From: Minisyncoccota bacterium
GTDB taxonomy: Bacteria > Patescibacteriota > Minisyncoccia > JAHIHE01 > JAGLIN01
Reading direction: 5' to 3'
Assembly (NCBI GenBank): GCA_023142995.1
Contig: JAGLIM010000028.1
Span: 1-52,094 of the forward strand
DNA length: 52,094 bases
Each line of letters opens with the position of its first letter. The first letter of the stretch is position 1. The notes beneath the pieces were generated by a model, which did not search any database, was not told the origin of the DNA, and was given only the letters and a program-made list of their open reading frames with translations. A program made the position numbers and the translations under genes. Shown here piece by piece: positions 3,689 to 43,807 of the stretch.

Positions 3689-4493
3689 AATCAAAAATAA
3701 ACTTATCACTGTAAGTTTATCAAAAAATGAGAATGATTATTTTTCTCTTACGGATATGGCTAAATTTAAAGGTCAAGATACAGGACTAATTATTTCTCAT
3801 TGGCTTACTACTAAATACACCATCCAATTTATGGGAATTTGGGAACAAATGCACAATAAAAATTTTAATGTTACGGAATTCCGTAACATTAAAAATGAGG
3901 TTGGAACTAATGGATTCGTCGTTTCTTCTTCTATGTGGATAAAAAGAACAAATGCGATAGGGGTGCGATCATCCGCTGGTAGATACGGTGGCGGGACTTT
4001 TGCTCATAAAGATATTGCCTTTGAATTTGCGACATGGATTTCGCCTGAATTTAAGTTGTATTTGATTAAAGAATTCCAGCGATTAAAAATAGAAGAGAAT
4101 AAAAAGTTGTCTTTGGAATGGAATTTAAAAAGGACTTTATCAAAAGTAAATTATAAAATACATACAGACGCTATTAAAGAAAATATTATTCCAAAAGTAA
4201 TTTCTAAAAAACAAGCTAAAATTATTTATGCGTCAGAAGCGGATATTTTGAATGTGGCTTTGTTTAATAGGACGGCAAAAGAATGGAGAAACGAAAATTC
4301 CGGTAAAAAAGGAAATATTAGGGATTACGCAAATATTACTCAATTGGTTTGCTTGTCAAATCTGGAAACTCTTAACGCAGAATTTATTCGCAGTGGCTTT
4401 GAGCAACAAGAGAGGTTGAAAAAACTTAATGAGATTGCTATTATTCAAATGAGGTCACTGGTTGGCAACAAGAGTATTAAGAAATTGAAATAG
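3669..4493 (+). CDS. KilA-N domain protein
   Basis: The product is 274 residues. The KilA-N DNA-binding domain spans about residues 8-125, with YFSLTDMAKF and a helical segment with a well-spaced W/I core. It is followed by the typical GRYGGGTFAHKDIAFEFATW segment near residues 104-124. The C-terminal half is helical and charged. KilA-N proteins are found in phages, large DNA viruses and bacterial defence or mobile islands, often beside type I restriction genes; the molecular role is generally unknown. The start ATG at 3669 overlaps an ORF6N-like stub. A 32-bp perfect palindrome lies inside the coding sequence (3863-3894). Confidence 0.88.
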   Translation: MKKEKIEIKNKLITVSLSKNENDYFSLTDMAKFKGQDTGLIISHWLTTKYTIQFMGIWEQMHNKNFNVTEFRNIKNEVGTNGFVVSSSMWIKRTNAIGVRSSAGRYGGGTFAHKDIAFEFATWISPEFKLYLIKEFQRLKIEENKKLSLEWNLKRTLSKVNYKIHTDAIKENIIPKVISKKQAKIIYASEADILNVALFNRTAKEWRNENSGKKGNIRDYANITQLVCLSNLETLNAEFIRSGFEQQERLKKLNEIAIIQMRSLVGNKSIKKLK

Positions 4494-33337: not shown

Positions 33338-33372
33338 TTTAAATAGAGCGACAATTTGTCGCTCTATTTAAA
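33338..33372 (+). terminator. Strong 16-bp hairpin between rpmG and tRNA-Trp
   Basis: TTTAAATAGAGCGACA and its exact inverse are separated by ATT. A T-tract is absent downstream, so it may be a processing or Rho-like site rather than a classic terminator. Confidence 0.6.
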
Positions 33373-34587: not shown

Positions 34588-34620
34588 AAAAAACACAGAG
34601 TTAAAACTCTGTGTTTTTTG
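34588..34620. terminator. Bidirectional terminator between methyltransferase and ahcY
   Basis: AAAAAACACAGAGT and ACTCTGTGTTTTTT form a 14-bp perfect stem with a TAAA loop; A-run and T-run allow use on both strands. Confidence 0.9.
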
Positions 34621-39822: not shown

Positions 39823-40347
39823 ATGACTATAACAAAACAGAAAAAGAAAGACATAGTTAAAGGTCTTACTGAGAAGTTTTCGAAGTCAAAATCTATAGTT
39901 TTTGTTGGATTTCAGGGATTAACTGTTGCCGAGGATGAAGAACTAAGAGCTAAGCTCAGAAGTGAAAATATAGATTATAAAGTAGCTAGAAAAACTTTGA
40001 TCAAAAGAAGTCTTAAGGATGTTAATATTGAAGGAGTGGATGATTTAAATTTTGAAGGACCAATTGGAGCTGTAGTTGGATATGATGATGAGGTTGCTCC
40101 AGCAAGATTGGCAAACGAATATGCGAAAACGAATAAGAAATTAAAATTATTCGGTGGATATGTATCAAATAGATATTTAGATAAATCTCAAATTAAAGCT
40201 TTGGCATTATTGCCAGGAAAAGATCAACTAAGAGCTCAACTAGTAGGAACAATAAACGCACCTGTATCTGGTTTTGTAAATGTACTAGCTGGAAATGTTA
40301 GAGGATTAGTTACGGTGTTAAAAGCAATTAGTGATAAAAAAGAATAA
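39823..40347 (+). CDS. rplJ: 50S ribosomal protein L10
   Basis: L10 anchors the L7/L12 stalk and controls its own mRNA through the leader just upstream. The 174-residue product starts MTITKQKKKDIVKGLTEKFS and has SIVFVGFQGLTVAEDEELRA and YKVARKTLIKRSL, the rRNA-binding face, and the C-terminal helix VSGFVNVLAGNVRGLVTVL that binds L12 dimers. Length is normal. In many bacteria rplK and rplA precede; here the upstream gene is a DJ-1-like protein, so the operon contains only rplJ and rplL. Confidence 0.96.
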   Translation: MTITKQKKKDIVKGLTEKFSKSKSIVFVGFQGLTVAEDEELRAKLRSENIDYKVARKTLIKRSLKDVNIEGVDDLNFEGPIGAVVGYDDEVAPARLANEYAKTNKKLKLFGGYVSNRYLDKSQIKALALLPGKDQLRAQLVGTINAPVSGFVNVLAGNVRGLVTVLKAISDKKE

Positions 40348-40926: not shown

Positions 40927-43302
40927 TTATTCTTTTGTATTTATTTCAATTTCAAAGATATTATTACCGCTTAGGGCATAAATAGTTTCTTCTTTTTGAT
41001 CAACTATTATATTTTGCAAATTGCTAAATTTATCACTGACAAATTGTCTTATTAACTTTCCATTGCTTTTATCGAATAATACGATTCTCTTGTTTTGTTT
41101 ATCTGTAATATAGAGATAATTCATTTCTGGTTTGGTGTATATCGTTGATGTATCAGAAATAGGTGTACTTGGAATTTCAACTGAAAACTTTTGTTTATTT
41201 CCTGTTCTGTATTTATCAATTGTGCTATCAGATTTTAGAACATAGATAGAGCCATCAATTGTCAGAGAAATAGCATTTTCAATATTTATATTCTTATCAT
41301 CAAGCCACGCGTTTCCATCATTGAAACCTGTTTGCGTTTTTTTGAATTTGTATATTTGATTTGACAATGGATTTAAAGTGTAGATGAAATTACTATATGA
41401 ACTAATATCTTTTATTTCTGTATTGCTATCTGATAACTTCTCGCTAGCATTTGAAAAACTTTCAGTACTAATGTCATATATTTCAAAGCTATTATCTTCT
41501 GTAATAAATACTATTTCACCTATCTTGTTAATTAACTCTGAAGTAGTGGTAAAGCTTGTATTTTCATCAGAATAAACTTTTAGAGCTCCTATGCTGTTTT
41601 TTGAAAGATTTAAGTCGCTAATAAGCTTATTCTTTAAATCAAAAATAAAATATTTATCATTATATTGGAATATTTTTTCAGGATCATTTATGTGATCAAC
41701 ATTGTTAAAATCAATTACCTGCTTTGGATCATTAATTCTATTTATTAGATCAATAACATCTAGTTGATCTCGAATATTACTTAATAAAGCGATAAAGTTA
41801 TTATTTAGGTCTGTATATCTACTTTTTCCATTTAAGGTGGTGTTTCTTCGGTCTATTATTTTTCTTGCTTCTAGCAGTGTTTTTCTTGCTTGGCTCTTAT
41901 CGCTGATCGAATCGATCTCTGCCCGATCTACTTTTTCCTGAGCTTGTAAAAATATGTTTGAATATGCAGTAAATTTATTATCTTCAATATCTTTATATCT
42001 CTTGAAAACTAATCCTCCTGATAAAATAAAAGCAACTAAAATAAAAGCAATAACAATAACTCTTTTTCTTTTAGAGACTGAACTAATTTTTTGATATAAT
42101 TCTTCGTCAGATGTTTCTCTGTTTTTAACATTCTTTAACATTTCAATAGACTTTTTTAAAAGAAGTATTATAGGAGATATGATTAATAAAAATATTTTTA
42201 TGAAAAGCTTGCTTAATTTATTAAGAGTTTGACCTAAGGATCTGTTTTTAGTATCTTCATCCAGAGAAGAAAGAAAATCATCAGAATCTTCTTTTTCTTC
42301 TGTGGTGTTGTTTTCTATTTCTGCTTGTGGTCTATTAATATCATCTAATTTATTCTCATTGTCAGTATTTATGTTTTTTTCATCTGAATTTTCATATCCA
42401 TTTATAATATCTTCAAGACTTAGTTTTTCTTCAGCGTTAGTAACAATATTGTTTTTATCTGTTGTTTTTGCCTCTTTGTCATTGAAAGTTTCTTTTTTAT
42501 TAATCATAGTTTCATCACTTTCTTTTTTTGAGAAGGGGACAGCTTTATTTTGTTTTTCAAAAAAGTCGTTTTTCTTAGGTTCAATTTCAATATGTGTATG
42601 TGGTATTGTTTGTTGGTCGTTTTCTTCGATCTTCATAGCAAGTACTCCCATAGTGTTCAGGTCATTGTTCTGATTAGCAACATCGCTTATAATTTGAACA
42701 AAATCGTCAAGGCTATGTGAAGATTCTAATTCTTTTAACTTTTCTTCTGAGAATATGTTGAAAAGTTCAGGAGTTGCAAATAATACTAAATCTCCTACTT
42801 CTAATTCTCCGCTAGCAATATTTGCAAATGTTTTAAGCGAATCAGAACCATTTTGACTAGCAATATTTTCTCCTATATCAGAAATTTTGTTGTCCCTTAT
42901 AAGCACAGTCCTTATTTTTCCAGCTTGGCTTATATAAAGTTCTCCATTTTTATATGCGCTACATGTCATATTCAAATTACCCATCCAATCTGTATTATCT
43001 TGTTCTGCAAGATCAGAAAGTGCGGTATTTACTTTATGCAATCCAGATTCCAAACTTTCCATAGTGGATCTTTTTGGATTGGAATAAAATTCAGTTTTGA
43101 TCTTTGATGCCAAGGTGTTAATAAGATAGGATGAACTTTCAGAAAAATTTACAATTTCACCAATTATATAAAGATTACCAAGGGCTTGTTCATCAATATT
43201 CTCTGGAATATATATAAATGTATCACAAAAAGATTTCCCTTCCTCAGAAGAAACAACAACTTCTCTTAAGGTGACTTTAATTTTTTTACTAGAATCTAAC
43301 AT
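40927..43302 (-). CDS. Membrane protein: PP2C-like N-terminal domain and propeller-like C-terminal domain
   Basis: The 791-residue product has a PPM/PP2C-like phosphatase fold at about residues 1-240 (NLYIIGEIVNFSESSSYL, GNLNMTCSAYKNGELYISQA, GDLVLFATPELFNIF). Most metal-binding Asp residues of true PP2C enzymes are replaced, so it may be inactive or regulatory. A long acidic, low-complexity linker follows (about 250-365). Two hydrophobic segments lie near 370-388 and 413-433. A coiled region comes next (about 450-520), then a repeat-rich C-terminal region (about 530-790) resembling a beta-propeller (YVLKSDSTIDKYRTG, YLYITDKQNKRIVLFDKSNG). It fits an envelope sensor that links an outside propeller to an inside PP2C-like domain. 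Confidence 0.75.
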   Translation of the reverse strand: MLDSSKKIKVTLREVVVSSEEGKSFCDTFIYIPENIDEQALGNLYIIGEIVNFSESSSYLINTLASKIKTEFYSNPKRSTMESLESGLHKVNTALSDLAEQDNTDWMGNLNMTCSAYKNGELYISQAGKIRTVLIRDNKISDIGENIASQNGSDSLKTFANIASGELEVGDLVLFATPELFNIFSEEKLKELESSHSLDDFVQIISDVANQNNDLNTMGVLAMKIEENDQQTIPHTHIEIEPKKNDFFEKQNKAVPFSKKESDETMINKKETFNDKEAKTTDKNNIVTNAEEKLSLEDIINGYENSDEKNINTDNENKLDDINRPQAEIENNTTEEKEDSDDFLSSLDEDTKNRSLGQTLNKLSKLFIKIFLLIISPIILLLKKSIEMLKNVKNRETSDEELYQKISSVSKRKRVIVIAFILVAFILSGGLVFKRYKDIEDNKFTAYSNIFLQAQEKVDRAEIDSISDKSQARKTLLEARKIIDRRNTTLNGKSRYTDLNNNFIALLSNIRDQLDVIDLINRINDPKQVIDFNNVDHINDPEKIFQYNDKYFIFDLKNKLISDLNLSKNSIGALKVYSDENTSFTTTSELINKIGEIVFITEDNSFEIYDISTESFSNASEKLSDSNTEIKDISSYSNFIYTLNPLSNQIYKFKKTQTGFNDGNAWLDDKNINIENAISLTIDGSIYVLKSDSTIDKYRTGNKQKFSVEIPSTPISDTSTIYTKPEMNYLYITDKQNKRIVLFDKSNGKLIRQFVSDKFSNLQNIIVDQKEETIYALSGNNIFEIEINTKE

Positions 43303-43372: not shown

Positions 43373-43561
43373 ATGAAGTATCATTTTAACATCTTAACAT
43401 CTTGTATTTTAGTGCAGGAATTATAGGTGTTTACTAATTTGTTAATAGGAATCTGTTGTTCTTGGTATAAACCAATTTTTTGTTTTATTGTATTTATTAA
43501 TTCCAAGTAGAGACATTTTATCTGCTTTTATAGCAAGATATTTTATTGTTTGTAATCAATC

Positions 43562-43623
43562 AAAAATACTCCTATAACCTCTTTTATGACGATCGTCATA
43601 AAAGAGGTTATAGGAGTATTTTT
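43562..43623. repeat. Perfect 62-bp palindrome without spacer
   Basis: The left arm AAAAATACTCCTATAACCTC then TTTTATGACGA is exactly repeated inverted from 43,593 to 43,623; all 31 pairs match and there is no loop. It lies between the divergent PP2C-like gene and tRNA-Ala, so it is not at the end of either. The 430-bp gap 43,303-43,733 otherwise contains the two promoters and A/T-rich DNA. Confidence 0.93.
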
Positions 43624-43690
43624 AGTTTGTTTGCAATTTCATAATTTAAAAACTTAAATATGAAAACTTTAGTTATCAACATGTAGAGTA

Positions 43691-43719
43691 TTGACAATTT
43701 TGTTTTTTTAATTTAATCT
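43691..43719 (+). promoter_or_regulatory. Promoter of tRNA-Ala
   Basis: TTGACA (43691-43696) and TAATCT (43714-43719) are 17 bp apart, 15 bp before the tRNA. Confidence 0.65.
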
Positions 43720-43733
43720 TTAAAAAACAAGAA

Positions 43734-43807
43734 GGGCATGTCGTCTAGTCTGGTATGACCGCTCCTTTGCAAGGAGTAGAACCGGCGTTCGAATCGCCGC
43801 ATGTCCA
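43734..43807 (+). tRNA. trnA: tRNA-Ala (anticodon TGC)
   Basis: The acceptor GGGCATG pairs with CATGTCC (one G-T). The anticodon arm GCTCC-TTTGCAA-GGAGT shows TGC. The T arm CGGCGTTCGAATCGCCG is canonical. A weak hairpin with GATCC / GGGTC and TTTTCTTTT follows. Confidence 0.94.

Follow-up and report, generated by a model that had tools for sequence, protein, structure and literature searches.

Why would a bacterium of the phylum Patescibacteria carry a perfect 62-bp palindrome, without any spacer, between two divergent genes? The stretch in question, hereafter the window, is the whole 52,094-nt contig JAGLIM010000028.1 of a Minisyncoccota bacterium (GCA_023142995.1), here contig C21 of a 1.48-Mb genome in 95 contigs. 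An initial annotation, made from the letters alone, had proposed a regulator site, a replication or segregation site, a recent insertion or an assembly fold-back. Our results indicate that the palindrome is, with little doubt, a solo copy of a gene-linked palindrome family. We further consider it probable that the solo belongs to a two-part element of Patescibacteria, formed by a palindrome and a gene for a helix-turn-helix (HTH) and PaaX/Cas2-like protein that lies between two palindromes of its own.

A perfect palindrome from a dispersed family

The palindrome occupies positions 43562-43623, with no strand assigned, and is real and far beyond chance. Its arms (43562-43592 and 43593-43623) are complementary at 31 of 31 positions with 0 nt between them, as the initial annotation had read. 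Among 60 first-order Markov simulations of the window, none produced a perfect zero-loop arm of more than 12, and the expected count of arms of at least 31 is about 7e-13. As single-stranded DNA the palindrome folds with -31 kcal/mol (z = -14).

A sequence search of all contigs of the same genome matched the palindrome at six places. Matches were found in 6 of 54 genomes, its own included, so that the core, far from being absent from all relatives as the initial annotation had allowed, is present in five of 53. A looser core pattern matched 49 places in 6 of 11 genomes (5 in G000, 12 in G001, 17 in G004, 13 in G005, and 1 each in G009 and G016), and the reversed control pattern gave no match. 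In a pattern scan of named GTDB genomes (48 stretches), repeated matches came from records titled Candidatus Parcubacteria, from others titled Candidatus Paceibacterota and from an unclassified bacterium bin, and single matches from records titled Moranbacteria and Moraniibacteriota; the scan returned scattered matches in other phyla as well.

To describe the family we centred and aligned 51 copies, after dropping one of 52 regular-expression matches (L023 near 3835, with 3-bp arms and inside an open reading frame (ORF)). Two further copies, on C56 of the window genome and on C101 of G009, were missed by the regular expression and lie outside the 51. Genome searches and alignment delimit, within the window palindrome, a 38-bp core common to the other copies (43574-43611, query positions 13-50), with the tip ACGATCGT at 43589-43596. 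According to arm pairing and alignment, the left outer arm (43562-43573) pairs with the right one (43612-43623), and both are site-specific; none of these parts is assigned a strand. Only a similar right outer arm is retained in the C40 copy. CTCTTT/AAAGAG and CG..CG vary little or not at all among the 51 copies, a constancy that the search pattern partly imposes, and the central dinucleotide is purine-pyrimidine in every copy. Paired positions make up 194 of 233 in the variable middle of the core, and pairing extends beyond the core with site-specific letters, falling to background about 15 nt out. None of the 51 copies lies inside an ORF, a few overlapping ORF ends. As counted with a simple ORF caller, the 48 copies flanked on both sides lie between codirectional (34), convergent (9) or divergent genes (5), a distribution not significantly different from that of 189 background gaps (145, 18 and 26, respectively). 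A perfect zero-loop palindrome of 74 bp, exceeding that of the window, was seen at L031:763-836. In G005, palindrome clusters with two or three subtypes (AACCTCTTTT, AGCCTCTTTT, AGTGTCTTTT) lie 5′ of the same paralogous operon (L020:3155-3511 and L023:2277-3430).

Cells without SbcCD tolerate long palindromes. SbcD (TIGR00619) was above cut-off in none of the 54 genomes, with weak matches in 6 and none in the window genome; the same search was positive in 8 of 14 control genomes. The lack of SbcD may explain the persistence of long perfect palindromes.

The palindromes flank a gene for a PaaX/Cas2-like protein

At five loci (G001:C48, G004:C42, G004:C55, G005:C54 and G001:C73) two palindromes enclose a 531-bp gene. 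Its 176-aa product matches PF20803 (PaaX_M, the central Cas2-like domain of PaaX) in five of five proteins, with 70.8-79.7 bits against a cut-off of 24 (E about 1e-20). Matches to whole PaaX (TIGR02277, a model of 279 positions against 176 aa here) stayed below cut-off in two proteins (29.5 and 39.5 against 264.55 bits), as did those to the Cas2 models PF09827 (at most 18.8 against 23.8 bits) and TIGR01573 (17.9 against 24.5). The N-terminal part of the protein gives weak winged-helix matches and, in line with the architecture of PaaX, may be HTH-like. Alignment of 88 short proteins shows two invariant residues, D114 and S141, and five nearly invariant ones, W108, G86, D105, R123 and Q139 (P0001 numbering). 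Protein searches found relatives in 27 of 54 genomes and PF20803 in 89 of 286 genomes of the phylum, in neither case in the window genome, which is 96% complete; the gene could lie in an assembly gap. We also considered carriage by viruses: a peptide pattern matched 302 stretches of viral contigs, none of which was confirmed as a relative.

Gene and palindrome were compared through the flank before the start and the flank after the stop at 70 homologous loci (not all protein matches), three of which (L169, L173 and L198) were left out for short flanks. Mechanically called ORFs of at least 100 aa (n=203) served as controls. Similarity between both flanks exceeded the 99% level of mismatched pairs in 41 of 67 genes and in 6 of 203 control ORFs (Mann-Whitney p = 6e-20), and for 43 of the 67 genes the best match of a flank was its own partner. 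What the two flanks have in common is a palindrome or quasi-palindrome whose letters are specific to the gene, with tips such as ACGATCGT, ACGGCCGT, GCTATAGC and CCATGG. In a second set of 30 loci 13 passed. All 13 belong to the 21 proteins below 215 aa, and 0 to the 9 longer PaaX_M proteins (221-269 aa), a split made after the scores were seen. When the 51 genes sharing a flank piece were viewed in a wider frame, the repeats were direct in 22, inverted in 7 and ambiguous in 22.

The match between gene and palindrome is lineage-specific and extends to the solos. The palindrome pattern of the single G003 gene occurs at eight places in G003, of which two adjoin the gene and six are away from it, and at none in seven other genomes. 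Likewise, the pattern of two G039 genes occurs at nine places in G039, of which four adjoin these genes and five are away from them, and at none in seven other genomes. These patterns being confined to their own genomes, the solos of a genome therefore carry its own gene-associated type and, as in REPtrons, the palindrome on either side of the partner gene is also that of the solos. Beside the G017 unit, successive quasi-palindromes centred on ACGGCCGT (L149:2018-2290) resemble a small array.

Units and solos alternate at orthologous sites

Two sites were found occupied by a unit in some genomes and by a solo in another. Site A, between a 665-702-aa gene and a 258-281-aa gene, holds units in G005, G004 and G003 and a single solo in the window genome (C30:17942-17969). 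Site B, between genes of about 260 and 1100 aa, holds units in G001, G004, G007 and G017 and a solo in G005 (C58). In a tree of 69 proteins the site-A gene of G005 groups with the site-B genes of G001 and G007 (99/92, 98/93), and the site-A gene of G004 with G001 and G005 genes from other sites (100/97). The tree, which does not follow the sites, suggests either that the occupants of the sites were exchanged or that paralogues were lost differentially.

Solos are also present or absent at orthologous sites. We queried the flanks of nine sites, of which five had both flanks together in another genome (those of L029, L034, L141 and L005 did not). For these five solo sites 12 orthologous gaps were recovered: 11 are without a family palindrome and one, in G003, contains a G003-type palindrome that is positioned differently. 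Some of the gaps contain extra ORFs. As for the window copy, all 17 relatives searched contain a match to its 791-aa neighbour. No family palindrome was found in the stretches fetched for these 17 loci, and the 12 of them that were scanned for tRNA-Ala have none; therefore the neighbourhood differs, and no exact empty site for this copy was found. The G001 match to the same neighbour is flanked by near-identical 50-bp palindromes of another family (L215:128-177 and 3931-3980).

A candidate mechanism and its weaknesses

The cognacy of gene and palindrome suggests that the protein binds its own palindrome. A dimer would recognise it either in duplex form or folded into a hairpin, extruded or single-stranded, and would then move the unit or the palindrome via excision and insertion, or promote recombination between copies. 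Units and palindromes would in this way be inserted, exchanged and lost at a low rate. Since flanking copies can be direct, loss of the gene between them could leave one solo, and in the window genome, where the gene was not found, solos alone would remain. We regard the proposal that the partner protein mobilises the palindrome as evenly balanced. More tentatively, and with the chances somewhat against it, these could be mobile elements of Patescibacteria in which an HTH and Cas2-like protein excises and inserts units at palindromic attachment sites and leaves solos behind, the unit being devoid of a tyrosine transposase and of Cas1. Of the four options of the initial annotation, recent insertion is the one that fits best, except that it cannot have been a one-off event, since the palindrome is a member of a dispersed family.

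Several observations weigh against the two-part element. Copy numbers are low, with at most 17 core matches per genome, and 26 of the 67 genes failed the flank test. The gene tree could have arisen through differential loss of old paralogues. The units at sites A and B and five groups of solos keep the same neighbouring genes across different genera; this suits vertical descent or a function as well, and for the solos it speaks against rapid movement. The intergenic DNA of the empty sites is too diverged for alignment at base level, and neither an insertion junction nor a target duplication was made out. Finally, no catalytic residue was established in the partner protein, no solved structure matched it by sequence, and an AlphaFold model of three proteins was unusable (pLDDT 42).

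If such elements do move in this manner, they would be a Cas2-like counterpart of REPtrons and offer a possible view of how Cas2-like proteins came to DNA insertion. PaaX_M genes are common in the phylum, and their best matches would file them as regulators or as Cas2. The gene-specific palindromes give these proteins a candidate substrate that is predicted down to the single base, and make them a testable case of a Cas2-like domain tied to mobile or regulatory DNA outside CRISPR. They also offer a source for otherwise puzzling perfect palindromes in streamlined genomes. Our results point to a two-part element that has so far gone unrecognised. A full-text search, judged by titles and the beginnings of abstracts and covering neither preprints nor most subscription journals, found no literature linking PaaX/Cas2-like genes to palindromes in these bacteria.

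Alternative explanations and known systems

The main alternative, which we consider unlikely, is that the palindromes are operators. A PaaX-type autorepressor would bind them as duplex DNA, and the solos would be operators of a small regulon co-evolving with the repressor. The palindromes fit a dimer, and the upstream one ends about 45-75 nt ahead of the start codon in most of the listed family-f1 units, but a second palindrome lies 3′ of the stop codon. The solos persist at five groups of orthologous places, with letters that shift with the type of the genome; yet the palindrome is absent from 11 of 12 orthologous gaps, and solos between convergent genes (9/48) are not below background. An operator does not easily account for the pairing maintained in the variable middle (194/233) and in the site-specific outer arms. 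Furthermore, while the domain is that of PaaX (PF20803), the nine longer PaaX_M proteins lack a flanking pair. The partner shares this central domain with the PaaX transcriptional repressors (TIGR02277; outlined in part of PMC4424350), from which it differs in being only 176 aa long, in scoring far under the family cut-off and in having palindromes on both sides.

The window copy itself gives little reason to see an operator shared by two divergent promoters, as the initial annotation had offered. It lies, as annotated, between a 791-aa ORF on the minus strand (40927-43302, start at 43302) and a tRNA-Ala (TGC) on the plus strand (43734-43807, from a tRNA scan), two neighbours reported here as context only. 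The best promoter-like site on the minus strand (43372-43344) and a TTGACA read by eye near 43692, ahead of the tRNA-Ala, are both away from the palindrome, and the family is also found between convergent genes.

It is improbable that the palindromes act at the RNA level, as transcribed hairpins that terminate transcription or stabilise mRNA and have spread by chance. The window palindrome is scored as a terminator on both strands and has a T-run, yet it is 5′ of both neighbours, and not 3′ of a gene with a stem followed by a T-run as an intrinsic terminator would be; the doubts of the initial annotation about such a role are borne out for this copy. Four other copies also lie between divergent genes. 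TTTT is present at an end in 15 of 51 copies, but a T-run is absent from the remaining 36, and gene-specific pairing is left unexplained.

Classical REPs moved by a Y1 (RAYT) transposase are a still weaker candidate, which we hold to be very improbable. As described in parts of PMC2817692, PMC3116915, PMC8266576 and PMC3733652, REP/RAYT pairs (TnpA-REP, REPtrons) consist of short dispersed intergenic palindromes that co-evolve with a gene flanked by the same palindromes, and here lies the likeness. In contrast, the consistent partner here is a different gene: its HTH and PaaX/Cas2-like product matches PF20803 and not PF01797, and so is not the Y1 (HUH) tyrosine transposase that defines those pairs. 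The palindromes are perfect, zero-loop and present in tens of copies at most, and inspection of the 51 aligned copies by eye revealed no common unpaired GTAG-type tag in the flanks, where the stem begins. Y1_Tnp genes are indeed present in the three genomes searched, and two of the 11 have a core palindrome no more than 1.3 kb away, but the other nine do not, and within 2.5 kb of the three in the window genome there is none. Other families of long near-perfect palindromes, in or adjoining Y1_Tnp genes (L115:5352-5418, L118:4960-4993, L119:5016-5045, L122:2276-2343 and 2820-2867), are possibly palindromic inserts in or next to coding sequence. In the same bacterial family, GTAGGG...CCCTAC palindromes flank a Y1_Tnp fragment (L117:67-95 and 374-402) and look like a classical REP/RAYT pair.

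Two other systems bear a resemblance. CGTC-tagged REPs are also palindromic intergenic repeats for which the consulted part of PMC3733652 gives no known transposase. There an unpaired CGTC tag ends an 8-9-bp stem with a 4-5-nt loop, whereas in many copies of the present family CGTC is within the tip of a long stem. TIGR-Tas, according to an excerpt of PMC12045711, comprises stem-loop arrays with spacers around the gene of a Nop-domain protein and occurs in Parcubacteria, too. Palindromes around a protein gene are common to both, but the five partner proteins have no Nop match at E up to 0.1, and no spacer arrays were seen.

Chimeric fold-back reads can yield perfect zero-loop palindromes, but such an artefact is excluded for the family and very unlikely for the window copy, because the core recurs with other flanks and in imperfect forms on other contigs of the same genome and in independently assembled relatives.

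Setting of the palindrome in the window

A role in replication or segregation found no support. GC skew, which the initial annotation had singled out near 43.6 kb, dips across the minus-strand 791-aa ORF and then recovers, with no feature centred on the palindrome. No phage match to window positions 43500-43700 was found. An Rfam scan of the window at the gathering threshold returned only two tRNAs and one ribosomal protein L10 leader (RF00557, 39701-39813), the latter preceding a 174-aa ORF at 39823. More perfect or near-perfect palindromes, of 28-35 bp, lie at 3863-3894, 33338-33372 and 34588-34619 and may be terminators.
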